Below are positions 38,281 through 60,936 of a DNA stretch of 64,000 bases, piece after piece. A program made the position numbers and the translations under genes. Positions within the stretch are counted from its first letter, which is position 1, and every line of letters starts with the position of its first letter. The notes beneath the pieces were generated by a model. The model was not told where the DNA came from and searched no databases. It saw only the letters and a program-made list of their open reading frames with translations. The DNA is from Alloalcanivorax gelatiniphagus. Its GTDB lineage: Bacteria > Pseudomonadota > Gammaproteobacteria > Pseudomonadales > Alcanivoracaceae. Location of the stretch: the NCBI RefSeq assembly GCF_005938655.1, contig NZ_VCQT01000020.1:62001-126000 (forward strand), read 5' to 3'.

Positions 38281-39102
38281 TCACGGGTCCTGCGGACCCC
38301 ACCATCGACGGGCCCGGCGTAGCACCGGCTCGTCGATCATCTCACCGTCCAGCTGGAACGGCAGGGCCCGGTGCCCGGCGGCTTCCAGCACCCGCCGGGC
38401 CCAGTCCCGTTGTGCCTCGCTCAGGGTAAAGGCCTGGTGCACCGGCTCGATCTGTGCCGGGTGAATGCAGAGCATGCCACCGAACCCCATCTGCGCCGCC
38501 CGGCGCGCCCGATCACGGACCGGTTGCGGGTCCCGGAACCCGGGCACCACACTTTCCAGGGGCGGGGCCAGACCCCGGGCGCGGCTGTGCAGCAGCACTT
38601 GCACACGCAGCTGGTCGAGCACCGTGTCGGCGCCTTCGCTTTGGTCTTCCAGGCCCAGGTCCAGGGCGCTGTCCAGGGCGCCGAAGGCGAGCCGTTCCAG
38701 CCCCGGCGTGGCGGTCAGCGCCGCCAGGGCGAGCACGCCGGCGGCGCTTTCCACCAGCGCCCAGAGCGGCTTGCCAAGGGCGGCCACGGTGGCCAGGTCG
38801 GTGCTCCGTTCCGCCTTGGGCAGCATCACGCCGTGCACCGCCGGCCAGGCCGCGCACAGCGCCAGGTCGTCCTCGAACCAGGGGCTGTCGGCGGCGTTGA
38901 CGCGCACCCACAGGGGCGCGCCGCCGGGGTCGTCGGCCAGCGCCCGGGCCAGGTCCGCCCGGGCGGCGTCCTTGTGCTCCGGGGCCAGCGCGTCCTCCAG
39001 GTCCAGGATGATGGCGTCGGCGCCGCTGGCGCGGGCCCGGGCGATCCGGTCCGGGCGGCTGGCGGGCACGAACAGGGCGGAGCGCACCACCGGGGCGGTC
39101 AT
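38281..39102 (-). CDS. ccl: CitE-like CoA lyase (HpcH/HpaI family), citramalyl-CoA lyase candidate
   Basis: A 273-residue TIM-barrel lyase. Start RSALFVPASRPDRIARA and DAIILDLEDAL (about 28-38) match the CitE/Mcl/Ccl group; metal-binding Glu lies in ALVESAAG (about 116-123) and Asp in FGALDSALDLG (about 140-150), and IHPAQIEP is near the end. The predicted reaction is citramalyl-CoA to pyruvate and acetyl-CoA. The start overlaps the CoA transferase stop by 4 bases. It is the last gene of an operon matching Pseudomonas ich-...-ict-ccl. The lyase function is inferred from family and context. Confidence 0.82.
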   Translation of the reverse strand: MTAPVVRSALFVPASRPDRIARARASGADAIILDLEDALAPEHKDAARADLARALADDPGGAPLWVRVNAADSPWFEDDLALCAAWPAVHGVMLPKAERSTDLATVAALGKPLWALVESAAGVLALAALTATPGLERLAFGALDSALDLGLEDQSEGADTVLDQLRVQVLLHSRARGLAPPLESVVPGFRDPQPVRDRARRAAQMGFGGMLCIHPAQIEPVHQAFTLSEAQRDWARRVLEAAGHRALPFQLDGEMIDEPVLRRARRWWGPQDP

Positions 39103-40295
39103 CCGATCACCCCCTGCCGGCGCAGCCGGTCCCGGTGGTCGGGGTCGAAGCCCAGGCCACCGAGGATGGCGTCGGTGTGCTCGCCCAGATCCGGCACCGC
39201 GCCCATGCGCGGCGCCCAGGCGTTGCTGACGCCGGGGGGCAGCAACGCCGGCAGCGGGCCCTTGGGGCTGCCGATTTCGGTCCAGCGGCACCGTGCCGCC
39301 AGCTGCGGATGCCGCCACACGCCGTCCATGTCGTTGACGTGGGCATTGGCGATGCCGGCCCGGTCCAGCCGCCCCAGCACCTCCTCCGCGTCCAGCCCGG
39401 CGAACTCGGTGAGGATCAGCGCCTTGAGCGCGGCCCGGTGGCGTACCCGCAGGGAGTTGGAGGCGAAGCGCGGGTCCCCGGCCAGCTCCGGCTGGCCCAG
39501 TACCTGGTCGCAGAACAGGTTCCATTCCCGCTCGTTCTGCAGGCCCAGCATCACGGTGCCGCCGTCCCCGGTGTCGAACGGGCCGTAGGGGTAGATGGTG
39601 GCGTGGGCGGCGCCGCTGCGCGGCGGTGGCGCGGCGCCCTCGAAGGCGTAGTAGAGCGGGTAGCCCATCCATTCCACCAGGCTTTCCAGCATGGACACGT
39701 CGATGCGGCTGCCCTGGCCGGTGTGCTGGCGCATCAACAGGGCGGACAGAATGTGGCTGTAGGCGTACATGCCGGCGGCGATATCGGCGATGGAACAGCC
39801 GGCCTTGGCCATCTGCTCGTCGTTGCCGGTCACCGAAAGAAAGCCGCCTTCGCTCTGGATCAGCAGGTCGTAGGCTTTTTTGTCCTGGTAGGGGCCGCCT
39901 TCACCGTAGCCGGAAATATCGCACACGATCAGTGCCGGATGGCGGGCGTGCAGGGTGTCGAAATCCAGCCCCAGGCGGGCGGCGGCGCCGGGGGCCAGGT
40001 TCTGCACCAGCACGTCGGCCTGCTCCAGCAGCCGCTCCAGCACCGGCCCGGCATCGCCGTGTTTGAGGTCCAGGGTGAGGCTCTCCTTGGAGCGGTTGGT
40101 CCACACGAAGTGGGACGCCAGGCCGCGCACCCGCTCGTCGTAGCCACGGGCGAAATCGCCCACGCCGGGCCGCTCGATCTTGATCACCCGGGCGCCCAGG
40201 TCCGCCAGTTGCCGGGTGCAGAAGGGCGCGGCGATGGCATGCTCCAGGCTGACCACGGTGACGCCCTCCAGGGGGCGCGAAGGGGAGTCGGTCAT
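39099..40295 (-). CDS. ict: Class III CoA transferase (CaiB/BaiF), itaconate CoA-transferase candidate
   Basis: A 398-residue family III transferase. EGVTVVSLEHAIAAPFCTRQLADLGARVIKIE is the typical start. The catalytic Asp is Asp171 in CSIADIAAGMYA, and GYGEGGPY is near 130. In Pseudomonas the homologue in this gene set (Ict/RipA) transfers CoA from succinyl-CoA to itaconate. It is coupled to the CitE-like gene and 23 bases downstream of the dehydrogenase gene. A different C5 or branched dicarboxylate cannot be excluded. Confidence 0.8.
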   Translation of the reverse strand: MTDSPSRPLEGVTVVSLEHAIAAPFCTRQLADLGARVIKIERPGVGDFARGYDERVRGLASHFVWTNRSKESLTLDLKHGDAGPVLERLLEQADVLVQNLAPGAAARLGLDFDTLHARHPALIVCDISGYGEGGPYQDKKAYDLLIQSEGGFLSVTGNDEQMAKAGCSIADIAAGMYAYSHILSALLMRQHTGQGSRIDVSMLESLVEWMGYPLYYAFEGAAPPPRSGAAHATIYPYGPFDTGDGGTVMLGLQNEREWNLFCDQVLGQPELAGDPRFASNSLRVRHRAALKALILTEFAGLDAEEVLGRLDRAGIANAHVNDMDGVWRHPQLAARCRWTEIGSPKGPLPALLPPGVSNAWAPRMGAVPDLGEHTDAILGGLGFDPDHRDRLRRQGVIG

Positions 40296-40318
40296 GGTGG
40301 AATCTCCTCGGCGGGCGT

Positions 40319-41482
40319 TCAGAACGAGCGTGGCAGTTCGAGCAGATGCTCGGCCACGTAGGACAGAATCAGATTGGTGGAGATCGGCGCCACCTGGTAG
40401 AGCCGGGTCTCGCGGAACTTGCGCTCCACGTCGTACTCGCAGGCGAAGCCGAAACCGCCGTGGGTTTGCAGGCAGGCGTTGGCCGCTTCCCAGGAGGCCT
40501 TGGCGGCCAGGTATTTGGCCATGTTGGCGCTGGCGCCGGCGGGCTGGCCGGCGTCGTATTCCCGGCAGGCGCGCCAGCGCATCAGGTCGGCGGCCTCCAC
40601 CTCGATGTGCGCTTCGGCGATGGGGAATTGAATGCCCTGGTTCTGACCGATGGGGCGGCCGAACACTTCCCGCTGGCGGGCATAGTCACTGGCCTTTTCG
40701 ATGAACCAGCGGCCATCGCCGATGCACTCGGCGGCGATCAGGGTGCGCTCCGCGTTGAGGCCGTCGAGGATATAGCGGAAGCCCTTGCCTTCCTCGCCGA
40801 TCAGATTTTCCGCCGGAATTTTCAGGTCGTCGAAGAACAGCTCGTTGGTGATGTGGTGCACCATGTTCTCGATGGGCCGCACGGTGAGGCCATTGCCGAT
40901 GGCCTGGTGCAGATTCACCAGAAAGATCGACATACCGTCGGTTTTTTTCTTCACCTGATCCAGTGGCGTGGTGCGCGCCAGCAGGATCATCAGGTCGGAA
41001 TACTGAACCCGGGAGATCCACACCTTCTGGCCGTTGATCCGGTAGTGGTCGCCCTGGCGAACGGCGGTGGTTTTGATCTTGGTGGTGTCGGTGCCGGTGG
41101 TGGGTTCGGTGACCGCCATGGATTGCAGCCGCAGCTCTCCGCTGGCCAGGCGCGGCAGGTACTCGCGTTTCTGCGCCTCGGAGCCGTTCCGCAGCAAGGT
41201 GAACATGTTGTACATCTGGCCGTGCACGGTGCCGGAGTTGCCGCCGCAGCGGTTGACCTCCTCAAGGATCACCGAGGCCTCCGCCAGGCCCAGGCCGGAG
41301 CCGCCATATTCCTCGGGGATCATCGCCGCCAGCCAGCCGGCCTGGGTGAGGGCGGCGACGAATTCCTCCGGGAACCCCTTGGCCTGGTCGATGCGGCGCC
41401 AGTAGTCGTCGCCGAAGCGCTCGCACAGGCCGCGCACCCCTTCCCGAATCTGTGCCAGGGCCTGGGCATCGTGCTCAATCAT
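40319..41482 (-). CDS. Acyl-CoA dehydrogenase of the itaconate-type cluster
   Basis: A 387-residue FAD flavoenzyme: MAVTEPTTGTDTTKIKTTA for the acyl-CoA/FAD site (about 130-148) and CLQTHGGFGFACEYDVERKFRETRL near 340-364. The usual catalytic Glu of the YEGT motif is absent (here QVAPIST). A Glu is present at the alternative position used by isovaleryl-CoA and long-chain enzymes (LNAERTLIAAE, about 246), so it is probably active. It matches the dehydrogenase found between the hydratase and the PrpD-like gene in the Pseudomonas itaconate cluster. The exact substrate is unknown, perhaps methylsuccinyl-CoA. Confidence 0.85.
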   Translation of the reverse strand: MIEHDAQALAQIREGVRGLCERFGDDYWRRIDQAKGFPEEFVAALTQAGWLAAMIPEEYGGSGLGLAEASVILEEVNRCGGNSGTVHGQMYNMFTLLRNGSEAQKREYLPRLASGELRLQSMAVTEPTTGTDTTKIKTTAVRQGDHYRINGQKVWISRVQYSDLMILLARTTPLDQVKKKTDGMSIFLVNLHQAIGNGLTVRPIENMVHHITNELFFDDLKIPAENLIGEEGKGFRYILDGLNAERTLIAAECIGDGRWFIEKASDYARQREVFGRPIGQNQGIQFPIAEAHIEVEAADLMRWRACREYDAGQPAGASANMAKYLAAKASWEAANACLQTHGGFGFACEYDVERKFRETRLYQVAPISTNLILSYVAEHLLELPRSF

Positions 41483-41503
41483 GTGTCTCTCCCGATCTTG
41501 TTG

Positions 41504-42856
41504 TTAGCTCTGAAAACGCACCGGACCACCGGCGCCCAGGCTCCAGACCCGGGCGATCAGCTGGTCGGCGCGCGCCGCGTTGGTGTTGCCGCCGAAGGCG
41601 GCCAGGCGCCGGAACTTGTCTTCCAGTTCCGGGCGCGAAAGGGTGTTGCCCGGGTCGCCCTTGGGCTCGTCGATGGCGCCGTGCAGGGTGCGTCCGTCCA
41701 CGGTTTCCACGGTGATCCGGCCCAGCCAGCGGGCCGGGTAGGCCTGGTCCACCTCCGCGTCCAGGGTCATGCGCACCCGGTCACGGAACGCCGCCACCGC
41801 CGGGTCGTCCAGGGGAATGCCGTGGAATTCCCCGAGCCCGGCGCGGCCGTGCAGGGCGATCAGCGCCAGCACCGTGCCCATGGAAAACTTGGCCTGATGG
41901 ACGGTGCGCGGGGTGTCCACCCGGCCCAGCACGTCCAGGGCGCCCTGGTGCACCCGGGCGGTGACGCCATGGATCTGGTCGGCCACCAGGTGTTCCCGGG
42001 CCATCAGGTCGAGCAGGGCATCCGCCGCCGGATGGGTGTGGCGGCAGGAGGCGTGGAACTTGAAGGAGGTCTCCGCCAGTGCCCAGCGCTGGCCCAGGCG
42101 ATCGTCGAGAAAAGCGGGCTCGGCCTGGTCGGAGAGGCCGGCGGCCAGGCCCTGGTCCCCTTCCAGAATGTCGCGGGCGCCGGTCAGACCGTCGGCGGTG
42201 AGACTGGCGGCGAGCACGCCGTCCGCCGCCGCCTTGGCGGTGTGCAGCTGTTTGGAGTCGGCCGCGTCGCGCAGAAATTCCCACAGCCCGGCGGCCTGGG
42301 TGCCGGCGGTGCCGAGCAGATGGGTGAAGCGCTCCTGGTCGAAGTCCAGCAGCTTGCCGGCGGCCACCGCCGCCGCCAGGGTGCCCACGGTGCCGGTGGT
42401 GTGGAACACCCGGTAATGGGAGCGCCCCAGAAACTCACCGATGCGAATGCCCGCCTCGTAGCCGGCCACCGCCGCCGTGATCAGGTCGCGGCCATCGCGG
42501 CCTCGGTCCTGGGCCAGGGCCAGGGCGGCGGGGAACACCACGGTGGCCGGGTGCAGCACCGAGCTGTTGTGCAGGTCGTCCTGCTCCACCACATGGGAGG
42601 CGGCGCCGTTCACCAGGGCGGCGAAGTAGGGCGAGGTGGTGGTGCCGTCCACCAGGTTTTCGCAAGGCCCTTTGGCCGGCCCCATGCGCCGGGCGTAGCC
42701 CGCGAACAGGGGCACCGGCGGTTGCCCCGCACCGGCCAGCAGCGAGCCCAGCCAGTCGAGAAACAAATCCTCCGCCCGTGCCACCACCGCGTCGGGCAGA
42801 TCTTCAAAACGCAGGGCGGCCAGGAAGGCGGTGAGGTTTTCCGTGTGTTGGCTCAT
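41504..42856 (-). CDS. MmgE/PrpD family protein
   Basis: A 450-residue member of the 2-methylcitrate dehydratase/cis-aconitate decarboxylase fold. The all-helical domain I has DLFLDWLGSLLAGAG and GAASHVVEQDDLHNSSVLHPATVVFPAALALAQ, and the lid domain has KFHASCRHTHPAADAL. The family includes PrpD and IrgI/CAD (which makes itaconate), so in this cluster a role in making or handling a methylated tricarboxylate is possible. Its ATG shares one base with the MaoC gene's TAA, and it lies 21 bases before the dehydrogenase gene. Confidence 0.85.
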   Translation of the reverse strand: MSQHTENLTAFLAALRFEDLPDAVVARAEDLFLDWLGSLLAGAGQPPVPLFAGYARRMGPAKGPCENLVDGTTTSPYFAALVNGAASHVVEQDDLHNSSVLHPATVVFPAALALAQDRGRDGRDLITAAVAGYEAGIRIGEFLGRSHYRVFHTTGTVGTLAAAVAAGKLLDFDQERFTHLLGTAGTQAAGLWEFLRDAADSKQLHTAKAAADGVLAASLTADGLTGARDILEGDQGLAAGLSDQAEPAFLDDRLGQRWALAETSFKFHASCRHTHPAADALLDLMAREHLVADQIHGVTARVHQGALDVLGRVDTPRTVHQAKFSMGTVLALIALHGRAGLGEFHGIPLDDPAVAAFRDRVRMTLDAEVDQAYPARWLGRITVETVDGRTLHGAIDEPKGDPGNTLSRPELEDKFRRLAAFGGNTNAARADQLIARVWSLGAGGPVRFQS

Positions 42857-43695
42857 TAAGTCTGTTCCTCGAATTGCACCTGGGCGGTCTGCGACTGGCC
42901 GCCCTGATCGGCGGCGAACAACCGGGCCCGGCCCGGCTCTTCATCCAGGCCGCCCACCACCAAGGCGCCCGGGCACAACAAGGGCCGCAGGCCGCGAAAG
43001 CGGAAGTCGGTGGGCCGTGCCCCTGGGTGGGCTTGAAGGAAGGCCTCCAGCACCAGGGTGGCGATCAGCGGGCCGTGCACCACCAGGCCGGCGTAACCCT
43101 CGGTGGCGGTGGCGTAGGGCCAGTCGTAGTGAATCCGGTGGCTGTTGAAGGTCACCGCGGAGTAGCGGAACAGCAGGGTCGGGTCCGGTTCGACGGTGCG
43201 CCGCCATTGCAGGGCGGGCAGGGGCTCGCCGGGCCGGGCCGGCAGGGCACGGGGCTCCCGGTAGACCAGATCCTGCTGTTCATGGATCGCTTCCTCGCCG
43301 TCCTGCTCGTAACGGTGCTCCACGGTCACGAAGATCATGGCGCCGGCGTCACGGCCCTCCTTGCGCTCAATCCGGGTCACCCGGCTGTGACGCAGGGCCG
43401 GCTGGCCGACCCGCAACGGTCGCCGGAAGCTCAGCCGGCCACCGGCCCACATCCGCTGCAGACCGGGCATCGGCGGCAGGAAGTCGCCGCCCAGGGTGTG
43501 ACCGTCCGGGGACAGACGCTCCGCCGGCGCCGCCGGCTGAAAAAAGGCCCAATGCCACAGCCAGGGCAGCGCCTCCCCCTGGCCCGGCGCGGGCCGTCCC
43601 AGGGTGGCGGCCACCCGGGCCACGGCGCCGGGATCGAGGGCATCTACCTGATGCTGTTCGGCCCCCAGCCAGGCCTCCGGTTGATCAGAACCCAT
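42856..43695 (-). CDS. ich: MaoC/HTD2-type hydratase, itaconyl-CoA hydratase candidate
   Basis: A 279-residue double-hotdog protein. The N-terminal FAS1-like dehydratase hotdog carries PMPGLQRMWAGGRLSF. The C-terminal hotdog has RYSAVTFNSHRIHYDWPYATATEGYAGLVVHGPL (split motif FNSHRIHYD, about 183-191). This is the pattern of mesaconyl-C4-CoA and itaconyl-CoA hydratases, where Asn replaces the MaoC Asp. Predicted reaction: itaconyl-CoA to citramalyl-CoA. It is the first gene of the minus-strand operon; a triple GTATAC element lies 32-51 bases upstream. Confidence 0.82.
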   Translation of the reverse strand: MGSDQPEAWLGAEQHQVDALDPGAVARVAATLGRPAPGQGEALPWLWHWAFFQPAAPAERLSPDGHTLGGDFLPPMPGLQRMWAGGRLSFRRPLRVGQPALRHSRVTRIERKEGRDAGAMIFVTVEHRYEQDGEEAIHEQQDLVYREPRALPARPGEPLPALQWRRTVEPDPTLLFRYSAVTFNSHRIHYDWPYATATEGYAGLVVHGPLIATLVLEAFLQAHPGARPTDFRFRGLRPLLCPGALVVGGLDEEPGRARLFAADQGGQSQTAQVQFEEQT

Positions 43696-43726: not shown

Positions 43727-43746
43727 GTATACTGTATACGGTATAC
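43727..43746. promoter_or_regulatory. Three tandem GTATAC hexamers (candidate GntR operator)
   Basis: GTATAC occurs at 43727-43732, 43734-43739 and 43741-43746, a 7-base period with one-base spacers T and G. It sits in the 114-base region between the divergent ich-type and SDR genes. Palindromic GTATAC cores are typical of GntR/FCD repressors. A further GTATAC lies at 61660-61665 beside the gntR gene. Confidence 0.65.
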
Positions 43747-43809: not shown

Positions 43810-44730
43810 ATGTCGAACAGCAATCTGCTCGACGGCAAGGCGGTGGTGGTCACCGGCGCCGGCGGTGGCATCGGCCGGGATATCGCCCTGGCCATGGCGG
43901 CCCGGGGCGCCCGGGTGGTGGTCAACGACATCGGCGCATCGTTGAGCGGCGAGGGCAACGACGCCGGCCCGGCGCAACAGGTGGTGGAAGCGATCCGCGC
44001 CGCCGGCGGCGAAGCGGTGGCCAGCACCGACAGCGTGTCCGAGGCGGCCAGCGCCAACGCGGTGATCCAGACCGCCCTGGATCATTTCGGCCGCATCGAC
44101 GGCGTGGTCAACAACGCCGGCATTCTCCGGGACCGTTTCTTTCACAAGATGAGCGTGGACGAATGGGATGCGGTGCTCAGGGTGCATCTCTACGGTGCCT
44201 TCTACATGAGCCGGGCGGCGGCGCCCCATTTCAAGGCCCAGGACGGCGGCGCCTTCGTGCACATGACCTCCACCTCCGGGCTGATCGGCAACCTGGGGCA
44301 AGCCAACTATTCCGCCGCCAAGCTGGGCGTGGCGGCGCTGTCCAAGTCCATCGCCCTGGATATGCAGCGCTTCAATGTGCGCTCCAACTGCATTGCCCCA
44401 TTCGCCTGGAGTCGCATGACCGGCTCGGTACCGGCGGACAGCGAGGAAGAAAAACAGCGCGTGGAGCGCTTCAAACAGATGACCCCGGCCAAGATCGCGC
44501 CGTTGGCGGTGGCCCTGGTGGGCGACGCCACCGCCGATGTGAGCGGTCAGATTTTCGCGGTGCGCAACAACGAGATTTTCCTGATCAGCCAGCCCCGGCC
44601 GGTGCGCTCGGTGCACAACAGCGATGGCTGGACGCCGGAGACCGTGTTGTCCCAGGCGCTGCCCGCGCTGCGCGCCAGCTTCCACCACCTGGACAAGTCC
44701 GCGGACGTGTTCTGCTGGGACCCGATCTGA
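43810..44730 (+). CDS. SDR dehydrogenase, MFE-2-like 3-hydroxyacyl-CoA dehydrogenase
   Basis: A 306-residue short-chain dehydrogenase resembling the N-terminal unit of peroxisomal multifunctional enzyme 2: TGAGGGIGRDIALAMAARGARVVVNDIG (NAD motif about 13-20, Asp for NAD preference), NNAGILRDRFFHKM, and the catalytic triad Ser in TSTSGL, Tyr and Lys in YSAAK. It probably oxidises a 3-hydroxyacyl-CoA. GGAGGAGTT precedes the ATG. It is the first gene of the 17-kb plus-strand run and divergent from the itaconate-type operon. Confidence 0.87.
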   Translation: MSNSNLLDGKAVVVTGAGGGIGRDIALAMAARGARVVVNDIGASLSGEGNDAGPAQQVVEAIRAAGGEAVASTDSVSEAASANAVIQTALDHFGRIDGVVNNAGILRDRFFHKMSVDEWDAVLRVHLYGAFYMSRAAAPHFKAQDGGAFVHMTSTSGLIGNLGQANYSAAKLGVAALSKSIALDMQRFNVRSNCIAPFAWSRMTGSVPADSEEEKQRVERFKQMTPAKIAPLAVALVGDATADVSGQIFAVRNNEIFLISQPRPVRSVHNSDGWTPETVLSQALPALRASFHHLDKSADVFCWDPI

Positions 44731-44755: not shown

Positions 44756-45175
44756 ATGAACGACCACGCAGTGAGCCGGCCCGCGCCGGCGGCCCGTGTT
44801 TACGCCGACGCCCTGGCGGAGGGCCAATTCCGGATTCAACGTTGCCGCGCCTGTGGCAGCGCCATTTTCTATCCCCGCGAACTGTGCCCGGAGTGCGGCG
44901 CCGGCGAGCTGGACTGGTTCGCCCCCAGCGGCCGGGGCACGGTCCATGCCACCACCACCGTGCGCCGCAAGCCGGAGGCCGGCGGCGACTACAACGTGGC
45001 GCTGATCGACCTGGAAGAGGGCCCCAGACTGATGAGCAGGGTGGAAGGGATCGCCGCCGAGGCGGTGCGCATCGGCCTGCCGGTACAGGCCCGGGTGGCG
45101 GTAACGGAAGGTGAGGGGCTGCTGCTGTTCGACGCGGTGGCATCCAACAACGCCGGGGAGAGCGACCATGAATAA
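44756..45175 (+). CDS. DUF35 (ChsH2-like) OB-fold zinc-ribbon protein
   Basis: A 139-residue protein. A rubredoxin-like zinc ribbon has four Cys (Cys30, Cys33, Cys44, Cys47: CRAC...CPEC), followed by an OB fold with GRGTVHATTTVRR. DUF35 proteins bind acyl-CoA and form complexes with thiolase-fold enzymes, for example the Ltp2 retro-aldolase of steroid side-chain breakdown. Its stop overlaps the start of the next gene, a thiolase-fold protein without the active cysteine, by 8 bases, the usual arrangement for such a pair. Confidence 0.88.
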   Translation: MNDHAVSRPAPAARVYADALAEGQFRIQRCRACGSAIFYPRELCPECGAGELDWFAPSGRGTVHATTTVRRKPEAGGDYNVALIDLEEGPRLMSRVEGIAAEAVRIGLPVQARVAVTEGEGLLLFDAVASNNAGESDHE

Positions 45176-46349
45176 TGCCAGCCTGAGCCAGCTGCGCGGC
45201 AAGACCGCCATCGCCGGCGTCGCCACCTTCGGTTGCGGTGAAGCCCCCGGCTACAGCGATATGGACCTGCTGGCCAACGCTGCCCGCCGGGCGGTGGCCG
45301 ACGCCGGCCTGACCATGAACGACATCGACGGCCTCTGTACCGCCAGCGTGCTGGCCACCATGTGGCCCATGGAAGTGGTGGAGCACCTGGGCATCAACGC
45401 CCGTTTTATCGACGGCACCATGATCGGCGGTTCCAGCTTCGTGGCCCATCTGATGCCGGCCATGCTGGCGCTGGAAGCCGGCCAGTGTGACGCCGTGCTG
45501 GTGTGCTACGGCAGCGCCCAGCGCACCTCCACGCTGAACCGCAAGGAAGTGGCCAAGGCCCGCCGCCGCATGGACCCGCAACCCTACGAGCATCCCTATG
45601 AGCCGATTCTGCCGTTGTCCGCCTATGCCCTGGCGGCGTCCCGGCACATGCACGAATTCGGCACCACCCGGGCGCAACTGGCGGAGGTGGCGGTGTCCGC
45701 CCGGGAATGGGCGCGGCTCAATCCGGACGCCTTCATGCGCGACCCGCTCACCGTGGACCAGGTGCTCGCCTCGCGGATGGTGTCCGACCCGCTCACGGTG
45801 CGGGATTCCTGCCTGGTCACCGACGGTGGCGGCGCCTATGTGCTGGTGCGCGCCGAGCGCGCCCGGGACCTGCCCAGGCCGCCGGTGTACGTGCTGGGTA
45901 GCGGCACGGCGGTGTGGCACCGGCAGATTTCCTCAATGCCGGACCTGACCGTCACCGCCGCCCGGCAATCCGGCGAGCAGGCCTATGCCATGGCCGGGCT
46001 GGCCGCCGCCGACATGGACATGGCGCAACTCTATGACGCCTTCACCATCAACACGCTGCTGTTCCTGGAGGACCTGGGGTTCTGCGCCAAAGGGGAGGGC
46101 GGTGCCTTCGTCGCCGATGGCCATATCCGTCCCGGCGGCAGCTTGCCGGTGAACACCAACGGGGGCGGCCTGTCCTGGGGCCACCCGGGCATGTACGGCA
46201 TCTTCGCCACCATCGAAGCGGTGCGTCAGTTGCGTGGCGAGGCCGGCGACCGCCAGGTGGCCGCACCGGCCACCGCCATCGTGCAAGGCAATGGCGGCAC
46301 CCTGTCGAGCCAGTCCACCGCGATCCTGGGCACCGGCGACACGCTCTGA
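45168..46349 (+). CDS. Thiolase-fold protein lacking the nucleophilic Cys (Ltp-type aldolase candidate)
   Basis: A 393-residue SCP-x-thiolase-like protein. Where active thiolases have the nucleophile Cys, it reads MIGGSSFVAHL (about 85-95). The second cysteine near the C-terminus is also replaced (GNGGTLSSQS). The GHPGMYG segment and the overall lipid-transfer-thiolase pattern remain. Cysteine-free thiolases coupled to a DUF35 partner include Ltp2, Ltp3 and SAL, which cleave tertiary beta-hydroxyacyl-CoA by retro-aldol reaction. The same role is inferred here. The ATG at 45168 follows AGAG in the DUF35 gene. Confidence 0.8.
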   Translation: MNNASLSQLRGKTAIAGVATFGCGEAPGYSDMDLLANAARRAVADAGLTMNDIDGLCTASVLATMWPMEVVEHLGINARFIDGTMIGGSSFVAHLMPAMLALEAGQCDAVLVCYGSAQRTSTLNRKEVAKARRRMDPQPYEHPYEPILPLSAYALAASRHMHEFGTTRAQLAEVAVSAREWARLNPDAFMRDPLTVDQVLASRMVSDPLTVRDSCLVTDGGGAYVLVRAERARDLPRPPVYVLGSGTAVWHRQISSMPDLTVTAARQSGEQAYAMAGLAAADMDMAQLYDAFTINTLLFLEDLGFCAKGEGGAFVADGHIRPGGSLPVNTNGGGLSWGHPGMYGIFATIEAVRQLRGEAGDRQVAAPATAIVQGNGGTLSSQSTAILGTGDTL

Positions 46350-46445: not shown

Positions 46446-46549
46446 GCGCTTTGGCGGCTATCGCCATAGGCGTATTCGTGGGCCCCGGACCATGCTTAGC
46501 GGTGCGCCAAACCAACCATAACGATCGAATAACAATGAGGAGGTGCATC

Positions 46550-53824: not shown

Positions 53825-55501
53825 ATGAATAACAATCATCTCCGCTTTTATCCCCGTGGCCTGGGCCACCCCATGACGGTGCCGTCGCTGACGCTGGCGG
53901 ACAGCCTGGCGCAAATGGCCAGCCGTTTTCCGGACAAGCCGGCGCTGGTTTTTTACGACGCGGTGCTCAGCTATGCCCAGGTCCAGGACCGGGTGGAGCG
54001 GCTGGCCGGCTATCTGCGCCAGCGCTGGGGCGTGGTGCGCGGCGACCGGGTGCTGTTGCTGAGTCAGAATTGCCCGCAGTTCGTGATCGCCTTCTATGCG
54101 GTGACCGCCATCGGCGCGGCGGTGGTGCCGGTGAACGCCATGAGCACCACCGACGAACTGCGGCACTATGTGGACGACAGCGGCGCCCGGGTGGCGATCT
54201 GTGCCGAGGAGTTGTACCCGGCCCTGCGCGGCTGCGTGGACAACGGCAGCCTGGCGCGCACCCTGGTGTTCCATTACAGCGATGGCCTGGACGGTCTCGA
54301 CCACGGCGACCTGAGCCCGCCCACCTGGGTCACCGGCCCGCCGCGCCCGCCCCGGGACCCGGCGGTGACGTTCTGGAACGATGCCCTGGCGGAGGGCGGC
54401 CGGCTGGCGGCTCAACCGTTCGGCCCGGACCAGCTGTGCGTGCTGCCGTACACCTCCGGTACCACCGGCAAGCCCAAGGGCTGCCGGCACAGTCACCGTA
54501 CCCTGATCACCGCCCTGTACGCGTCCAGCCTGTGGCGTGCCTTTAATCCGGAGGCGGTGTTTCTGTCGGTGGCGCCCATGTTCCATATGCTGGGCCTGCA
54601 GAATTCCATGAACCTGCCGCTGTTCCTGGGCGGCACCCTGGTGATCCTGCCCCGCTGGGACCGCCACACCGCCGCCCGTCTGATCGAGCGCTGGCGGGTA
54701 ACGGTATGGGGCGCGCCACCGTCCATGGTGATGGGCTTCTTTGGCGACCCGGACGTGGAAAACCACGACCTCTCCAGCCTGTCGCTGATTTTCGGCGGCG
54801 GTGCCGCCATGCCCGAGGCGGTGTCGCGCAAGCTCAATGACGAACACGGCATCGTCTTCAACGAGTCCTACGGTCTCACCGAGACCGCCGCCTTCCTGCA
54901 CGCCAACCCGGTGCATCGCAACAAGCGCCAGTGTCTCGGCGTGCCCACCTTCGACGTGCACTCGCTGATCATCGACCCGGACAGCGGCGAACCGCTGGCG
55001 GACAACGAGCGCGGTGAACTGGTCACCAGCGGCGGCCAGGTGATGGACGGCTACTGGAACAATGACCAGGCCAACCGGGAAGCCTTTATCGAGATCGACG
55101 GCCGCCGTTACTTCCGCACCGGCGATCTGGCCTACCGGGACGAGGACGGCTACTTCTTCCTCACCGACCGCCTCAAACGAATGATCAGCGTGTCCGGCTA
55201 CAAGGTCTGGCCCGCCGAGGTGGAAAACCTGATGTACCGCCACCCGGCGGTGCGCGAAGCCTGCGTGGTGGGCGTGCCGGACCGGGAAAAAGGCGAGCGG
55301 GTGGAAGCGGTGCTGGTGATCGATCCGGCCTACCGGGAGCGCCTGGACGAGGCCGCCATGATCGAATGGGCGCGCTCGGAGATGGCCGTTTACAAGGCCC
55401 CCCGGGCGGTCAGCTTTGTGGACGAACTGCCCAAATCCGCCGCCGGCAAGATTCTCTGGCGGCATGTACAGGAGGAGTACGCGGCCCGTGCCGCCCAGTG
55501 A
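53825..55501 (+). CDS. Acyl-CoA synthetase (AMP-forming)
   Basis: A 558-residue ANL-family ligase. The P-loop is YTSGTTGKPKGCRHS (about 210-224), the A5 motif NESYGLTET (about 350), the A8 hinge DRLKRMISVSGYKVWPAEVE (about 460) and the A10 lysine in PKSAAGKILWR. It activates a carboxylic acid to its CoA thioester; the substrate class (medium, long or cyclic) cannot be read from the motifs. It has GGAG 5 bases before the ATG. It probably activates the acid imported by the Tct transporter. Confidence 0.9.
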   Translation: MNNNHLRFYPRGLGHPMTVPSLTLADSLAQMASRFPDKPALVFYDAVLSYAQVQDRVERLAGYLRQRWGVVRGDRVLLLSQNCPQFVIAFYAVTAIGAAVVPVNAMSTTDELRHYVDDSGARVAICAEELYPALRGCVDNGSLARTLVFHYSDGLDGLDHGDLSPPTWVTGPPRPPRDPAVTFWNDALAEGGRLAAQPFGPDQLCVLPYTSGTTGKPKGCRHSHRTLITALYASSLWRAFNPEAVFLSVAPMFHMLGLQNSMNLPLFLGGTLVILPRWDRHTAARLIERWRVTVWGAPPSMVMGFFGDPDVENHDLSSLSLIFGGGAAMPEAVSRKLNDEHGIVFNESYGLTETAAFLHANPVHRNKRQCLGVPTFDVHSLIIDPDSGEPLADNERGELVTSGGQVMDGYWNNDQANREAFIEIDGRRYFRTGDLAYRDEDGYFFLTDRLKRMISVSGYKVWPAEVENLMYRHPAVREACVVGVPDREKGERVEAVLVIDPAYRERLDEAAMIEWARSEMAVYKAPRAVSFVDELPKSAAGKILWRHVQEEYAARAAQ

Positions 55502-55543: not shown

Positions 55544-56533
55544 ATGCCAATAACAACACTGAAAACCGCCATTCCCACTTTGCTGTGCGGTCTGCTGCTG
55601 AGCGGCGCCGCCCTCGGCGAGACGGTCAGCGCCGAGCAGTATCCCCAGCGCGAGATCGAGATCGTGGTGCCGTATCCCCCCGGCGGGGCCACCGACACCC
55701 TGGCCCGCGCCGTGTCCCAGAAGCTGTCCGAGCGCTGGAATCAGGCGGTGGTGGTGGACAACCGCCCCGGCGCCAGCGGCAATATCGGCGCCTCCTACGT
55801 GGCCCGGGACCAGGGCAACCCCTATAAGCTGCTGTTCGGCATCAACCTGCTGGTGCAGGCCCCGGCGCTGTTCGACAACCTGGGCTACGACGTGCGCACC
55901 GACCTGACACCGCTGTCGCTGGTGGCGCGCTCCCAGAGCCTGTTCGTGGCCACCCCGGGCGTGCCGGCGGACAGCTTCGAAGCGCTGGTGCAGCAAGTAC
56001 TCGACCACCCGGGGGAGTACGAGCTGGGCAACTACGGCATGGGCACCTCCGCCCATATTCAGGGCCAGTCCCTGAACCTGCAGACCGGCATGGATCTGCT
56101 GCACGTGCCGTACCCGGGTTCGGCGCCGTTGCTTAACGCCATTCTCGGCGAGCAGGTGCGCCTGGCGATCATCGACGCCGCCAGTTCCCGTTCCCATCTC
56201 GATACCGGCGCCTTCAAGGTGCTGGCGGTGACCGGTTCCGAGCGCCTGCCCACCCAGCCGGACGTGCCCACCTTCAAGGAACTGGGCTTCGAGGGCATGG
56301 ACGCCTACGGCTGGTTCGGGGTGCTGGCGCCGGCGGGCATTCCCGACGACGTGCGTGACAAATTGTCCGAGGCGATTTCCGAGATCGTGCAATCCGAGGA
56401 AGTCTCTTCACTGCTGATCCGGCTGGGGCTGATCCCGGTGGGCAACCGCAGCGAGGCGTTCGCCGAGGTCATCGAGGATGACCTGCAAACCTGGCAAAAC
56501 CTGGTCGACGAGACCGGCATCAGCATTCGGTGA
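55544..56533 (+). CDS. tctC: Tripartite tricarboxylate transporter binding protein TctC (Bug family)
   Basis: A 329-residue periplasmic binding protein: a signal peptide (about 1-26, ALG-E), then YPQREIEIVVPYPPGGATDTLARAV and VVDNRPGASGNIG, the hallmarks of Bug proteins. The domain for carboxylate binding ends with FGVLAPAGIPDDVRDKLS. The ATG at 55544 is preceded by AAGGTGA, and an in-frame GTG at 55535 lies inside that ribosome binding site. It is separated from tctB and tctA by six genes but in the same run, so one importer is likely. Confidence 0.92.
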   Translation: MPITTLKTAIPTLLCGLLLSGAALGETVSAEQYPQREIEIVVPYPPGGATDTLARAVSQKLSERWNQAVVVDNRPGASGNIGASYVARDQGNPYKLLFGINLLVQAPALFDNLGYDVRTDLTPLSLVARSQSLFVATPGVPADSFEALVQQVLDHPGEYELGNYGMGTSAHIQGQSLNLQTGMDLLHVPYPGSAPLLNAILGEQVRLAIIDAASSRSHLDTGAFKVLAVTGSERLPTQPDVPTFKELGFEGMDAYGWFGVLAPAGIPDDVRDKLSEAISEIVQSEEVSSLLIRLGLIPVGNRSEAFAEVIEDDLQTWQNLVDETGISIR

Positions 56534-56538: not shown

Positions 56539-57321
56539 ATGAGTGAATTGACCTTCGAGAACAGCTCGGTGTTCGTGGCCGGTGGCAGCAGCGGCATTAA
56601 CCTGGGCATCGCCCGGGCGTTCGCCGAGCGCGGCGCCCGCGTATTCCTGATCAGCCGCGACCCGGAGCGGGTGGCGGCGGCGGTGGCCGGGCTCCGCGAG
56701 AGCGGCGGCGAGGCCCGGGGCTGCGCCGCCGACGTGCGCGATCCGGCGGCGCTGGACGCCGCCTACCGGCAGGCCACGGACTGGTTCGGCGAGATCGACG
56801 TGCTGATCTCCGGGGCGGCGGGCAACTTCCTGGCCAGCGCCCTGGATATGTCCTGCAACGCCTTCAAGACGGTGGTGGACATCGACCTGCTGGGCACCTT
56901 CAACGTGCTGCGTTGTGGCCACGCCTGGCTGCGCAAACCCGGCGCGGCGGTGCTCAATATCTCCGCGCCCCAGGCGTTCAACCCGACCCGCAATCAGGTC
57001 CATGCCTGCGCCGCCAAGGCCGGCGTGGACATGATCACCAAGGTGTTGGCGATGGAGTGGGGCGACCAGGGTATCCGCGTCAATTCCCTGGTACCCGGGC
57101 CGATCGGTGACACCGAGGGCATCCGCCGGCTGGCGCCCAACGAGCAGGCGCTGGAGCGGATGCGCGCCACGGTGCCGCTGCGCCGGCTGGGGGCGCTGGC
57201 CGATGTGGCCAACATGGCCATGACCCTGTGTTCGCCCGGGGCCGGGTTCGTCACCGGCGCGGTGCTCACCGTGGACGGCGGCAGCTCGCTACAGGGCGGC
57301 CGTGATCTGAAACCGGAGTAG
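56539..57321 (+). CDS. DECR2-like SDR (2,4-dienoyl-CoA reductase candidate)
   Basis: A 260-residue SDR with the pattern of peroxisomal 2,4-dienoyl-CoA reductases: AGGSSGINLGIARAFAERGA, SGAAGNFLASALDMSCNAFKTVVDIDLLGTF, and HACAAKAGVDMITKVLAMEWG where the usual SDR Tyr is replaced but Lys is kept. PGPIGDTEGIRRL is also DECR-like. DECR removes one double bond of a 2,4-dienoyl-CoA. The start is ATG 56539; a GTG at 56530 overlapping tctC is possible. An enoyl-CoA isomerase candidate follows after 3 bases. Confidence 0.85.
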   Translation: MSELTFENSSVFVAGGSSGINLGIARAFAERGARVFLISRDPERVAAAVAGLRESGGEARGCAADVRDPAALDAAYRQATDWFGEIDVLISGAAGNFLASALDMSCNAFKTVVDIDLLGTFNVLRCGHAWLRKPGAAVLNISAPQAFNPTRNQVHACAAKAGVDMITKVLAMEWGDQGIRVNSLVPGPIGDTEGIRRLAPNEQALERMRATVPLRRLGALADVANMAMTLCSPGAGFVTGAVLTVDGGSSLQGGRDLKPE

Positions 57322-57324: not shown

Positions 57325-58134
57325 ATGGAAGCGTTGCGTTTACAGCGGGACGGCGGCGTGGCGGTGCTGACCCTGGCCCGCCCGGCCAGCCGTAATGCCC
57401 TGGACGAGGTGTTGCGGGAGGAACTGTTGGCGGTGCTGCCGCGACTGTCCGAGGACGACAGCCTGCGCGCCCTGGTGATCCAGGGGGAAGGCGGCGCCTT
57501 CTGCGCGGGAGGCGATCTGAAAGGTATCGGCGGCGCGCGCCTGGACGCGGACGGCTGGCGCCGCCGCATGGCCCGGGGCCACCAATGGCTCAAGCCGCTG
57601 CTGGCCCTGGATTGCCCGATCATCACGGCGGTGGACGGCGCCGCCTATGGCGCCGGTTTCAGCCTGGCCCTGTGCGGCGACTTTCTGCTGGTGGGGCCCC
57701 GAGCCCGCTTCTGCATGTCGTTTCTGCGCGTCGGGCTGATGCCGGACCTGGGCGGTCTGCCGGCGCTGTGCGCCGCCCTCGGGCCGCGCCGTGCCCGGGA
57801 ACTGGTGCTCAGCGCCCGGGAAGTGTCCGCCGACGAGGCCCTGCGCCTGGGGCTGGCCAGTGAAGCCCTGGACAGCGACCGCCTGCCCGGGCGCGCACTG
57901 GAGATCGCCAAGGCGTTCGAAGGCGCCTCACCGGCGGCGGTGGCCATGATCAAGAACGAAATCCGGCATCTGACCGCCGGCGACAGCGATGATCTGCTGC
58001 ACCGTGAGGCGGTGGGTCAGGCGGTGCTGTTCGACACCTCGGCGCACCGCGACGCGGTGGACCGGTTCCTCAATAAAAAGCCCGCCGCTTTTCAGTGGCC
58101 GCGGGATCGCTCGGGAGAACAACATGATTCGTGA
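57325..58134 (+). CDS. Crotonase-family protein, PaaG/isomerase-like
   Basis: A 269-residue crotonase. Oxyanion-hole segments are FCAGGDLKGIG (about 58-68) and GAAYGAGFSLALCGD (about 108-122). The hydratase glutamates are not in place: Ser stands in GAGFSLAL and the second site reads FLRVGLMPDLGG. The PD.GG form with Asp is typical of PaaG-type and Delta3,Delta2-enoyl-CoA isomerases. An isomerase role is inferred, and it would complement the DECR2-like enzyme upstream. It overlaps the following dehydrogenase gene by 11 bases. Confidence 0.85.
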   Translation: MEALRLQRDGGVAVLTLARPASRNALDEVLREELLAVLPRLSEDDSLRALVIQGEGGAFCAGGDLKGIGGARLDADGWRRRMARGHQWLKPLLALDCPIITAVDGAAYGAGFSLALCGDFLLVGPRARFCMSFLRVGLMPDLGGLPALCAALGPRRARELVLSAREVSADEALRLGLASEALDSDRLPGRALEIAKAFEGASPAAVAMIKNEIRHLTAGDSDDLLHREAVGQAVLFDTSAHRDAVDRFLNKKPAAFQWPRDRSGEQHDS

Positions 58135-59275
58135 TCAGGAAACCATGACGGCGCTGCTGGATACGGTGCGCCGCTTTGTGCGCGACACCCTGGTGCCCAG
58201 GGAGGAATGGGTGGCGGAGCACGACCGCATTCCCGAGGACGTGGTCCGGCAGATGAAGGAGATCGGGCTGTTCGGCCTCACCGTGCCGGAGGAGTACGGC
58301 GGCCTGGGCGTGACCATGGAAGAGGAAGCGCTGGTGATGATCGAGATGGGCAAGACCTCGCCGGCGTTCCGTTCCCTGTTCGGCACAACCGTGGGCATCG
58401 GTTCCCAGGGCATCCTGATGGACGGCACCGAGCAGCAGAAAAAGGAGTGGCTGCCGCGACTGGCCAGCGGTGAGCTGATCGCCTCGTTCGCGCTCACCGA
58501 ACCGGAGGCCGGTTCCGACGCGGCGTCCCTGACCACCCGGGCGGTCCGTGACGGCGACGACTATGTGATTCACGGCACCAAACGCTACATCACCAACGCG
58601 CCCCACGCCGGCCTGTTCACCCTGATGGCGCGCAGCGAACCGGACCAGCCCGGCCACAAGGGCGTGTCCGCCTTTATCGTCGACGCGCGCAGCCCTGGCA
58701 TCACCCTGGGCAAGCCGGACCGCAAGATGGGCCAGCGCGGCGCGCACACCTGCGACGTGGTGTTCGACGGCTGCCGGGTGCCGGCGGCCAACATTATCGG
58801 CGGCGTGCCCGGACGCGGCTTCACCACCGCCATGAAGGTGCTGGAGAAGGGCCGTATCCACATCGCCGCGATCTGCGTGGGCGTGGCCCAGCGCATGCTC
58901 GACGATGCCCTGCGCTATGCCATGGAACGCAAGCAGTTCGGCCAGCCGGTGGCGGAATTCCAACTGGTGCAGGCGTTGCTCGCCGATTGCCGCACCGAAC
59001 TGTACGCCGCCCAAAGCATGGTAATGGACGCGGCCCGGCGCCGGGACCTGGGCGAGAACGTGGCCACCGAGGCGTCCTGCTGCAAGTACTACGCCTCGGA
59101 AATGTGCGGCCGGGTGGCGGACCGGGCGGTGCAGATTCACGGCGGCGCCGGCTACATGGCCGAGTACGGCATCGAACGTTTCTACCGGGACGTGCGGCTG
59201 TTCCGGATCTACGAGGGCACCAGCCAGATCCAGCAGCTGGTGATTGCCCGGAACATGATGCGCGAGGCCGGCTGA
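58124..59275 (+). CDS. Acyl-CoA dehydrogenase (short/medium-chain type)
   Basis: A 383-residue flavoenzyme of the SCAD/MCAD type. FALTEPEAGSDAASLTTRA (about 121-139), QIHGGAGYMAEYGIERFYRDVRL near 336-358 and the catalytic Glu in IYEGTSQIQ (about 365). The ATG at 58124 has GGGAG 6-8 bases upstream; the frame that opens 135 bases earlier belongs to the crotonase region. It is the third dehydrogenase in the island, each with a different catalytic arrangement. Confidence 0.92.
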   Translation: MIRDQETMTALLDTVRRFVRDTLVPREEWVAEHDRIPEDVVRQMKEIGLFGLTVPEEYGGLGVTMEEEALVMIEMGKTSPAFRSLFGTTVGIGSQGILMDGTEQQKKEWLPRLASGELIASFALTEPEAGSDAASLTTRAVRDGDDYVIHGTKRYITNAPHAGLFTLMARSEPDQPGHKGVSAFIVDARSPGITLGKPDRKMGQRGAHTCDVVFDGCRVPAANIIGGVPGRGFTTAMKVLEKGRIHIAAICVGVAQRMLDDALRYAMERKQFGQPVAEFQLVQALLADCRTELYAAQSMVMDAARRRDLGENVATEASCCKYYASEMCGRVADRAVQIHGGAGYMAEYGIERFYRDVRLFRIYEGTSQIQQLVIARNMMREAG

Positions 59276-59315: not shown

Positions 59316-59369
59316 ATGATGGCTCGTACCCTGGCGGCCCTGATCGGTGCCGGTCTGACGCTGGATTAA
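59316..59369 (+). CDS. 17-codon ORF resembling a truncated signal peptide
   Basis: ATG ATG ... TAA encoding 17 residues: Met-Met-Ala-Arg, then a hydrophobic Leu/Ala/Gly stretch, ending Leu-Asp. It is preceded by a strong ribosome binding site (AAGGAGAAGG) and followed 10 bases later by the ATG of the ligase. It looks like the start of an exported protein (for example a TctC-like binding protein) left by a deletion, or a leader peptide. Not a recognised gene. Confidence 0.35.
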   Translation: MMARTLAALIGAGLTLD

Positions 59370-59379
59370 GGAGCACGCC

Positions 59380-60936
59380 ATGTATCTGACCCAGGGTCTG
59401 CACCGGGCGGTGCAGCAGTTTCCGCAACGGGCGGTGACCGTGGAAGACGGTCGCCGCCGGGATTACCGCACCCAGATGGACCGCTGCGCGCGGCTGGCCG
59501 GCGCGCTCGCCGGCGCCGGTCTGGTGCCCGGCGACCGGGTGGCGATTCTGGCCCTCAACGGCGCGGTCCATTGGGATTACTTTCCGGGGCTGTGGTGGGG
59601 CGGCTTGGTGGCCAACCCGGTGAATACCCGCTGGAGCCTGAAGGAGATGGCCTATTCCCTGTCCGACAGCGGCGCCCGGGTGTTGTTGGTGGACGATGCC
59701 TTCCTGGAACGGATTCCGGAACTGCGCCGGCTGTGTCCCGGCCTGCAGCAGGTGATTCATGTGGGCGCGGCGCCGACACCGGCGGAGCTGACCGCCTATG
59801 AACCCTGGCTGGCCGCCGCCGAGGCGGTGCCCGACCGCCGGGTCGGCGGCGACCAGCTGGCGGTGATTCTCTACACCGGCGGCACCACCGGTTTTCCCAA
59901 GGGGGTGATGCTGTCCCATTCCAATCTGTGGAGTTCGGCGGTGGGACGGCTGGCGGAAACCGAGGTGCCGTCGCCGTTCGTCACCCTGATGGCGGTGCCC
60001 CTGTTTCACACCGCCGGTCTGGCCAAGCTGGTCACCCAGTTGATCGTCGGCGGCACCGCGGTGGTGGAAGCGGGCTTCCGGGTGGACACGGTGCTCGCCG
60101 ACATGGCGGCGGAGCGCGTCACCGATGTGATTCTGGTGCCCAGCATGATCCAGATGCTGATCGACCACCCGACCTTCGCCGACCACGATCTGAGCGCCCT
60201 GGAAGCGCTCACCTATGGCGCCTCGCCGATCTCCCAGGCACTGCTGGAACGGGCCATGGCGGCGTTGCCCGGGGCCCGCTTCATGCAGTCCTACGGCATG
60301 ACCGAGGCGTCGCCGGTGATCACCGTGAACCCCTGGTGGAATCACCGGGGCGAGGCGCTGCGCAATGGCCGGGTGAGATCCGCCGGGCGCGCCGGCTGGG
60401 GGCTGGAGGTGCGGGTCGTCGATCCGCAAGGCAAGGAGCTGCCGCCGGGCACGGTGGGTGAGGTGATCGCCCGGGGCGACAACGTCATGCTAGGTTACTG
60501 GAACCAGCCGGAGCAGACCGCCGAGGTGCTGCGTGACGGCTGGCTGCACACCGGCGACGGCGGCTATATGGACGAGGAGGGCTACCTCTACATCGTCGAC
60601 CGTCTCAAGGACATGATCGTCAGCGGCGGCGAGAACGTGTTCTGCGCGGAGGTGGAAAACCGCCTGGCCCGCCATCCGGCGGTGGCCAGCTGCGCGGTGA
60701 TCGGCGTGCCCCACGACCAGTGGGGGGAGAGCGTCCACGCGGTGGTGGTGCTGCGGCCGGACAGTGAGGTCAGCGAAGCGGCGCTGTGTGATTTTTGCCG
60801 TGAGGAGTTGGCCGGCTACAAGTGCCCGCGTTCGGTGGAATACCGGGACTCGCTGCCCCTGTCCGGAGCCGGCAAGGTGCTCAAGAACGTGCTGCGCGAG
60901 CCCCATTGGCGGGGCCGCGACCGGCGCGTGTCCTGA
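59380..60936 (+). CDS. Acyl-CoA synthetase (long-chain-fatty-acid CoA ligase-like)
   Basis: A 518-residue ANL ligase. P-loop YTGGTTGFPKGVMLSHSN (about 165-182), A5 MQSYGMTEASP (about 304-314), A7 GDGGYMDEEGYLYIVDRLKDMI (about 388-409), A10 lysine in LSGAGKVLK. It is a different subgroup from the 53.8-kb ligase. The ATG follows AAGGAG. It is the last gene of the plus-strand run, ending 6 bases before the convergent gntR gene. Confidence 0.9.
   Translation: MYLTQGLHRAVQQFPQRAVTVEDGRRRDYRTQMDRCARLAGALAGAGLVPGDRVAILALNGAVHWDYFPGLWWGGLVANPVNTRWSLKEMAYSLSDSGARVLLVDDAFLERIPELRRLCPGLQQVIHVGAAPTPAELTAYEPWLAAAEAVPDRRVGGDQLAVILYTGGTTGFPKGVMLSHSNLWSSAVGRLAETEVPSPFVTLMAVPLFHTAGLAKLVTQLIVGGTAVVEAGFRVDTVLADMAAERVTDVILVPSMIQMLIDHPTFADHDLSALEALTYGASPISQALLERAMAALPGARFMQSYGMTEASPVITVNPWWNHRGEALRNGRVRSAGRAGWGLEVRVVDPQGKELPPGTVGEVIARGDNVMLGYWNQPEQTAEVLRDGWLHTGDGGYMDEEGYLYIVDRLKDMIVSGGENVFCAEVENRLARHPAVASCAVIGVPHDQWGESVHAVVVLRPDSEVSEAALCDFCREELAGYKCPRSVEYRDSLPLSGAGKVLKNVLREPHWRGRDRRVS

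Follow-up and report, generated by a model that had tools for sequence, protein, structure and literature searches.

Within the window analysed here, a 64,000-nucleotide stretch of the 4.2-Mb genome of Alloalcanivorax gelatiniphagus (contig G000:C13 of our sample), a five-gene minus-strand operon (38281-43695) of the itaconate type is separated by 114 bp from a 17-gene run on the plus strand (43810-60936), an acyl-CoA island transcribed divergently from it. The plus run is followed by a minus-strand gene for an FCD-GntR regulator and a plus-strand gene for a hotdog thioesterase (Table 1). Domain searches placed the genes named in a first-pass annotation of this sequence exactly where it had put them, and bore out both the itaconate-type gene set without a glyoxalase-type gene and the divergent promoter that it had proposed between the two halves. 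That annotation gave the plus run 15 genes instead of 17, and three dehydrogenases, of which two acyl-CoA dehydrogenases (ACADs) lie there and the third in the minus operon; it also overlooked the AraC-type regulator and ended before the conserved unit does, which takes in the FCD-GntR and thioesterase genes. We consider it moderately probable that the region 38281-62132 is a single catabolic regulon, in which the island delivers a C5 unit to the operon by retro-aldol cleavage. The coupling of operon and island is well supported, while the feeder reactions and the substrate are ones that we infer.

By its gene content, the minus-strand half is the published methylsuccinate/itaconate pathway. 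The ich, mcd, msi, ict and ccl families lie contiguously on one strand, and Ich and Ccl match the solved itaconyl-CoA hydratase 8khg and the solved lyase 8khl (Table 1), both of which we take to be Pseudomonas aeruginosa enzymes. Mcd and Ict share 82-87% and 70-76% identity, respectively, with their counterparts in Pseudomonas five-gene loci; these two proteins and Msi were likened to known enzymes through such loci, published residues and domains, and the reference sequences are not themselves characterised proteins. Msi carries His102, Tyr148 and Lys266 at the same numbering as the residues proposed for methylsuccinate isomerase (PMC12290011). In that work, Gonner et al. (2025) assayed Cupriavidus necator and P. 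aeruginosa proteins as (RS)-methylsuccinyl-C4-CoA dehydrogenase and (S)-(R)-methylsuccinate isomerase and found Ict to be efficient with (R)-methylsuccinate, and De Witt et al. (2023) arrived at a matching view from P. putida genetics (PMC9875883). Because the ACAD and MmgE/PrpD families of the minus operon have these published activities, the operon is expected to handle methylsuccinate as well as itaconate, and what had been called an itaconate operon should rather be named a methylsuccinate/itaconate operon. The first-pass annotation knew of no described pathway with this composition; for the minus operon this does not hold, as it is described in PMC12290011 and PMC9875883 and we have ruled it out as an undescribed pathway, but its coupling to the island appears to be new.

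The likeness to the P. aeruginosa and C. necator clusters thus covers all five families, their contiguity on one strand and the catalytic residues of the isomerase. In contrast to those clusters, the window has mcd and msi in swapped order, lacks a PA0880-type gene and has the operon fused to the island. The annotation had noted a slightly different gene order, which is correct in that ich-msi-mcd-ict-ccl differs from the Pseudomonas loci, but this order is common only to the window and genomes G012 and G001; the other eight of the 11 genomes that carry the cluster have ich-mcd-msi-ict-ccl, as also found in Pseudomonas loci.

To follow the two halves across the family, we used a sample of 46 genomes (G000-G045, own genome included). 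Orthologues of Ich (at least 54% identity), THL1 (at least 75%) and LIG1 (at least 57%) occur in an identical set of 11 genomes with zero discordance, comprising 7 of 13 in the genus of the window and 4 of 7 in its sister genus, g3. Partial and paralogous matches (in-family Ich-like 29-47%, THL1-like 34-53%, LIG1-like 42-50%) were left out of these counts, and the locus tables omit matches below 35% query coverage, or below 50% in the table of named loci. Twelve genes form a core present in all 11 clusters (Ccl, Ict, Mcd, Msi, Ich, DUF35, THL1, AraC, ACAD2, LIG1, ACAD3 and LIG2), whereas TctB, TctA, TctC, THL2, HadA, HadB, SDR1, SDR2 and SDR3 (short-chain dehydrogenases, SDRs) are found in 7 clusters and absent from the other 4; ECH is kept in 6, the thioesterase in 10 and the GntR gene in 9. 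Three gene arrangements exist among the 11 genomes, indicating that the linkage has outlasted rearrangement. The thioesterase was not detected in G012 (L065 1653-1851).

Table 1. Genes and predicted sites of the proposed regulon. Fractions give the number of the 11 family clusters that hold the gene; NCBIfam scores are bits obtained / curated cut-off.
Feature	Position	Strand	Evidence
Ccl, CitE-type (S)-citramalyl-CoA lyase	38281..39102	-	PF03328; 251 bits to 8khl
Ict, class III CoA transferase	39099..40295	-	PF02515; 70-76% to Pseudomonas five-gene-locus counterpart
Mcd, predicted methylsuccinyl-C4-CoA dehydrogenase	40319..41482	-	acyl-CoA dehydrogenase domains; 82-87% to Pseudomonas counterpart
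Msi, predicted (S)-(R)-methylsuccinate isomerase (MmgE/PrpD)	41504..42856	-	PF03972, PF19305; His102, Tyr148, Lys266
Ich, itaconyl-/mesaconyl-C4-CoA hydratase	42856..43695	-	305 bits to 8khg
GTATACTGTATACGGTATAC, predicted GntR operator, divergent promoter	43727..43746	.	tracks GntR gene
SDR1, short-chain dehydrogenase	43810..44730	+	PF00106; 7/11
DUF35 protein (zinc ribbon + OB fold), predicted THL1 partner	44756..45175	+	PF12172, PF01796; Cys 30, 33, 44, 47; 11/11
THL1, thiolase-fold protein without thiolase cysteines, retro-aldolase candidate	45168..46349	+	PF22691; YDAF, HPGMYG, TMIGGSS; 11/11
TctB	46535..47044	+	PF07331; 7/11
TctA	47050..48561	+	PF01970; 7/11
AraC-type regulator	48558..49643	+	PF12625, PF12833; 11/11
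THL2, SCP-2 type thiolase, Cys + HDCF	49710..50894	+	NCBIfam PRK08256 682/436 bits; 7/11
HadA-like hydratase subunit	50904..51362	+	PF13452; 7/11
HadB-like MaoC hydratase subunit	51359..51823	+	PF01575; 7/11
SDR2, predicted 3-hydroxyacyl-CoA dehydrogenase	51810..52631	+	PF00106; 7/11
ACAD2, acyl-CoA dehydrogenase	52641..53807	+	PF00441; 11/11
LIG1, AMP-forming acyl-CoA ligase	53825..55501	+	PF00501; NCBIfam PRK08314 765/705 bits; 11/11
TctC, solute-binding protein	55544..56533	+	PF03401; 7/11 at at least 47%
SDR3, short-chain dehydrogenase, DECR2 candidate of the first-pass annotation	56539..57321	+	PF13561; 7/11
ECH, enoyl-CoA hydratase/isomerase	57325..58134	+	PF00378; 6/11
ACAD3, acyl-CoA dehydrogenase	58124..59275	+	PF00441; 11/11
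LIG2, AMP-forming acyl-CoA ligase	59380..60936	+	PF00501; 11/11
FCD-GntR regulator, predicted to bind GTATAC sites	60943..61629	-	PF00392, PF07729; 9/11
Hotdog (4HBT) thioesterase	61692..62132	+	PF03061; 10/11

We also compared 80 named Ich loci (among the matches listed), of which only 64 are at least 15 kb long, so that gene absences hold just within the fetched flanks. The complete five-gene set is present in 39 of them, and 38 of these 39 have no THL1, ACAD2, LIG1 or ACAD3 orthologue in their flanks, the exception being Alcanivorax limicola. A LysR-type gene lies near 36 of the 39, its place being taken in the window by the GntR and AraC genes, and neither the GntR gene nor its motif (below) was found in any of the 80. 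The expectation that the halves would occur jointly across relatives thus held within the family, where they are together in 11 of 11 clusters, but not beyond it, where the five-gene half mostly stands alone.

Two further groups of loci pair the halves separately from this family, and we count them as independent support for the coupling. Four Achromobacter/Bordetella loci (L097, L098, L102, L116) have THL1 (69-71%) and DUF35 (59-66%) beside Ich, Ict and Ccl, together with ligase and ACAD genes and TctC; they differ from the window in that Mcd and Msi orthologues are absent, the ACAD and ligase matches reach only 26-34%, and the GTATAC motif is missing. Moreover, in two Marinobacter loci ACAD2 and LIG1 follow Ich-Mcd-Ict-Ccl, with two other genes intervening in L126. 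Among 369 genomes sampled from the class (own genome included), THL1-like proteins occur in 18, Ich-like proteins in 16 and both in 4. In one of the sampled genomes, G304 (L236 1384-3719), distant homologues of Ich (40%), DUF35 (35%) and THL1 (40%) lie immediately next to one another, as would suit a hydratase and an aldolase that act as a pair. Seven Burkholderiales-type loci (L125, L128, L130, L132, L136, L139, L145) have Ich and Ict beside ACAD genes, with no Mcd, Msi or Ccl orthologues, and four of the seven hold an SDR1 homologue (66-69%); these probably represent another Ich pathway.

The shared promoter adds a candidate operator and a candidate regulator to this linkage. The ich-SDR1 gap contains GTATACTGTATACGGTATAC, which holds the only matches to GTATACNGTATAC in the genome: no other match was found there at up to one mismatch, and the reversed control pattern matched once per strand. 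In the window, 2 matches were found against 0.14 expected at up to two mismatches. All seven cluster genomes of the window's genus have a triple site between ich and its divergent neighbour (SDR1, or AraC where the cluster is compact), and a double site adjoins the GntR gene in five of the seven, the window and G012 having a single GTATAC there.

We scored the exact motif and the GntR gene across 57 relatives. The motif occurs in 10 of them, with 21 of 22 forward matches falling in the cluster, whereas three genomes have a single match each to the reversed control. It is present in 9 of 9 genomes with the FCD-GntR gene versus 1 of 48 without; the nine genomes with the gene are exactly the cluster genomes with the motif, and G028 and G032, which keep the cluster, have neither. 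The sole GTATACNGTATAC outside the cluster lies at G050:C1:1969288-1969300. The FCD-GntR protein has both a GntR helix-turn-helix and an FCD domain. It is the predicted regulator of the GTATAC operator; acting as a repressor from the far end of the regulon, it would bind the triple site and switch both halves.

These results bear on the alternative that the window holds two separate catabolons that happen to be neighbours, with the Tct importer and the minus operon serving external methylsuccinate or itaconate, the rest of the plus run serving an unrelated acid, and the promoter shared through an accident of insertion. Such an arrangement would agree with the five-gene operon standing mostly alone elsewhere (38 of 39 loci, among the matches listed), with a TctC gene of unknown function near the C. 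necator operon (PMC12290011), with the dedicated importer included in the P. aeruginosa operon (PMC9875883), and with the sister genus, where TctB-TctA is divergent from the five-gene side. However, not one of the 46 genomes splits the halves over three arrangements, Tct is missing from 4 of 11 clusters that keep the rest, and all seven cluster genomes of the genus carry the motif in the divergent gap, making two independent catabolons quite improbable. The importer announced by the first-pass annotation is present, TctA, TctB and TctC domains all being encoded with TctC 7 kb away from TctA, but it falls outside the conserved core and its absences rule it out as an essential component. A paralogous island at a second TctA (59% alike; loci L081-L084) was likewise rejected, only Tct-like and LIG2-like matches being found there.

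The single regulon assigns the cleavage step to THL1, which matches the DUF35-partnered thiolase-fold proteins 4u4e (380 bits), 9myr (Sal; 218 bits) and 6ok1 (187 bits), the last presumably Ltp2. Where THL2 has CASGS and HDCF, THL1 has TMIGGSS and YDAF (at 289); with no cysteine at either thiolase position it was rejected as a plain thiolase, and the earlier designation as a retro-aldolase candidate stands, backed by the DUF35 neighbour. YDAF is kept in THL1 homologues of at least 56% identity, as is HPGMYG where covered (HPNMYG in one), and more distant homologues have YDAF in two cases and YDSF, YDCF, YDCY or YDHF in the remainder. The steroid side-chain aldolases Ltp2 and Sal (PMC12329534) likewise combine a thiolase fold without the nucleophilic cysteine with an adjacent DUF35 protein bearing a C-x2-C-x10-C-x2-C zinc ribbon. 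Their catalytic base is a tyrosine, the second residue being Tyr344 or Cys304 (PMC12329534), and the YDHF tyrosine of 6ok1 falls at position 294, as stated for Ltp2 in that paper. THL1 retains the tyrosine of the YD motif. It differs from Ltp2 and Sal in combining YDAF with a histidine at the Tyr344/Gln352 position, instead of YDHF with Tyr or YDCY with Gln, in its DUF35 protein lacking a hydratase domain, and in being distant from both. His339 of THL1 aligns with Gln352 of CtSal, and the Ltp2 alignment is gapped there; the second catalytic residue of Ltp2/Sal (Tyr344/Cys304) was not found in THL1, which has an alanine in the motif. Judging from these motifs, THL1 may be a retro-aldolase with a different acid group.

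In the mechanism that we propose, LIG1 and LIG2 would activate a larger acid, a substituted C5-dicarboxylate, ACAD2 and ACAD3 would desaturate it, a hydratase would add water, and THL1-DUF35 would cleave the 3-hydroxyacyl-CoA into an aldehyde or ketone and the C5 unit as a CoA ester, released as methylsuccinyl- or itaconyl-C4-CoA. Cleavage of 2-(1-hydroxyalkyl)-3-methylsuccinyl-CoA, for example, would by our own reasoning on the regiochemistry yield methylsuccinyl-C4-CoA, the ester that Mcd accepts. In the operon, Ict would activate the acid at C4, Msi interconvert free (S)- and (R)-methylsuccinate, Mcd yield mesaconyl-C4-CoA, Ich hydrate this to citramalyl-CoA, and Ccl split the product into acetyl-CoA and pyruvate. 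The idea of a larger acid ending in citramalyl-CoA, already put forward in the first-pass annotation, we count as right, with feeder reactions and substrate that we infer. THL2, HadAB and the SDRs are absent from the four compact clusters, which retain THL1-DUF35, both ligases and both ACADs; this suggests that the invariant chemistry is activation, desaturation and, putatively, retro-aldol cleavage. The Tct importer and the beta-oxidation set (HadAB, SDR2, THL2), where present, would plausibly serve uptake and the rest of the chain. LIG1 scores above the threshold set for a family of long-chain fatty acid ligases, which fits an alkyl-chain substrate and proves nothing.

That beta-oxidation set could alternatively be the centre of the island. 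It resembles the combination of D-bifunctional protein and SCP-2 thiolase, of which it would be the bacterial counterpart: the window holds a MaoC hydratase, an SDR and an SCP-2 type thiolase in one block, here as separate genes and outside the conserved core. The island would then carry out beta-oxidation of branched-chain or isoprenoid (di)acids, like peroxisomal pristanic acid breakdown, with methylsuccinate as the last fragment, released by the thioesterase and reactivated by Ict, and with THL1-DUF35 dealing with 3-methyl-branched positions. Seven of the 11 genomes hold the full HadA-HadB-SDR2-THL2-ACAD2-LIG1 set as a single block, HadA has a match to the hydratase domain of MFE-2, THL2 is assigned to the SCP-2 type family, the thioesterase is kept in 10 of 11, free methylsuccinate is used by Ict and Msi (PMC12290011), and relatives degrade hydrocarbons (PMC6850023). 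We nevertheless regard this version as somewhat unlikely: the beta-oxidation block is dispensable, being absent from 4 of 11 clusters, and stepwise cleavage of a regular isoprenoid diacid would, as we reason, leave the C1-CoA ester and not the C4 ester of Mcd. No supporting paper on isoprenoid routes to methylsuccinate was found among titles and opening lines of abstracts. Proteomics of A. borkumensis on pristane was rejected as direct evidence, its accessible text containing neither 'citramalyl' nor 'dioic', and PMC3982105 proved unrelated, its term being naphthyl-2-methylsuccinyl-CoA.

Several observations weigh against a single regulon fed by retro-aldol cleavage. The 11 cluster genomes are related and therefore do not represent 11 independent events, their co-occurrence amounting to few events. 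Of the four cluster genomes in the sister genus, two have neither motif nor GntR gene and the other two (G025, G014) carry the motif only ahead of ich, so that shared control is seen for one genus only. YDAF/His is not the catalytic pair of Ltp2/Sal, leaving retro-aldol activity not assured, and the NCBIfam name for the THL1 subfamily is acetyl-CoA acetyltransferase (670/421 bits). The compact clusters lack an obvious feeder hydratase, and beta-oxidation could still run in compact genomes, given that all four except G007 encode a THL2 homologue (67%) outside the cluster, and all four an SDR1 homologue (63%). THL1-DUF35 occurs without dicarboxylate genes in 10 of 13 other THL1 loci, some of which are short (L210, 4.9 kb); in the remaining loci a class III CoA transferase, a CitE-like and a PrpD-like gene accompany it in two (L208, L217) and a PrpD-like gene in one (L207). 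Finally, none of four minus-operon proteins scanned together reached an NCBIfam equivalog cut-off, Ccl falling below that of NF038242 (RipC_Ccl, the Yersinia-type RipC citramalyl-CoA lyase; 133.4/375 bits); Ich, in a separate scan, had no NCBIfam match.

Alkylitaconic acids are fungal products. If the retro-aldol mechanism applies, one specific and unlikely possibility is that the substrate is a 2-alkyl-3-methyl- or 3-methylene-succinate (an alkylitaconate, or a roccellic- or paraconic-type acid of fungi and lichens), cleaved by THL1-DUF35, which would belong to a third group of DUF35-dependent aldolases with the YDAF/His signature, into a fatty aldehyde and methylsuccinyl-C4-CoA or itaconyl-C4-CoA. 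Here a ligase would activate the carboxyl beside the alkyl chain, the first chain carbon would receive its hydroxyl through an ACAD and a hydratase, and the C4-CoA products would be the regioisomers used by Mcd and Ich. No breakdown pathway for alkylitaconates was found in the literature as judged from titles and the beginnings of abstracts; if true, this substrate would mean that alkylated itaconates are degraded by a new pathway and that methylsuccinate has a biological source.

The environmental origin of methylsuccinate was unclear until recently; the route since recognised is the reduction of itaconate, found in gut bacteria (PMC12290011). The feeder island, being conserved and apparently under common control with the operon, suggests another source, a C5 unit released from a larger acid inside the cell. 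The predicted regulator-operator pair further allows the inducer to be sought by reporter, and the aldolase-like group gains a substrate class predicted by the operon.

The neighbourhood of the regulon shows a few additional features. On the ccl side lie an ABM-domain monooxygenase gene (37999-38280), with an ABM gene close to the cluster in four of the 11 genomes, and a gene at 36358-37389 whose product had no Pfam match and which we take to be M29-like. In compact genomes (G005, L076 2971-6052; similarly L077-L079), an ACAD (30% to ACAD3) and an SDR (31% to SDR3) adjoin ccl, possibly belonging to a further acid pathway, and a protein beside ccl in G005 is presumably phosphotransferase-like. 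Between ACAD3 and LIG2, at 59316-59369, we found an 18-codon open frame (17 residues and a stop) that resembles, at its start and at its end (AGLTLD, stop), the corresponding ends of a second TctC gene, intact at this place in G012 and G001; the frame looks like the scar of an internal TctC deletion.

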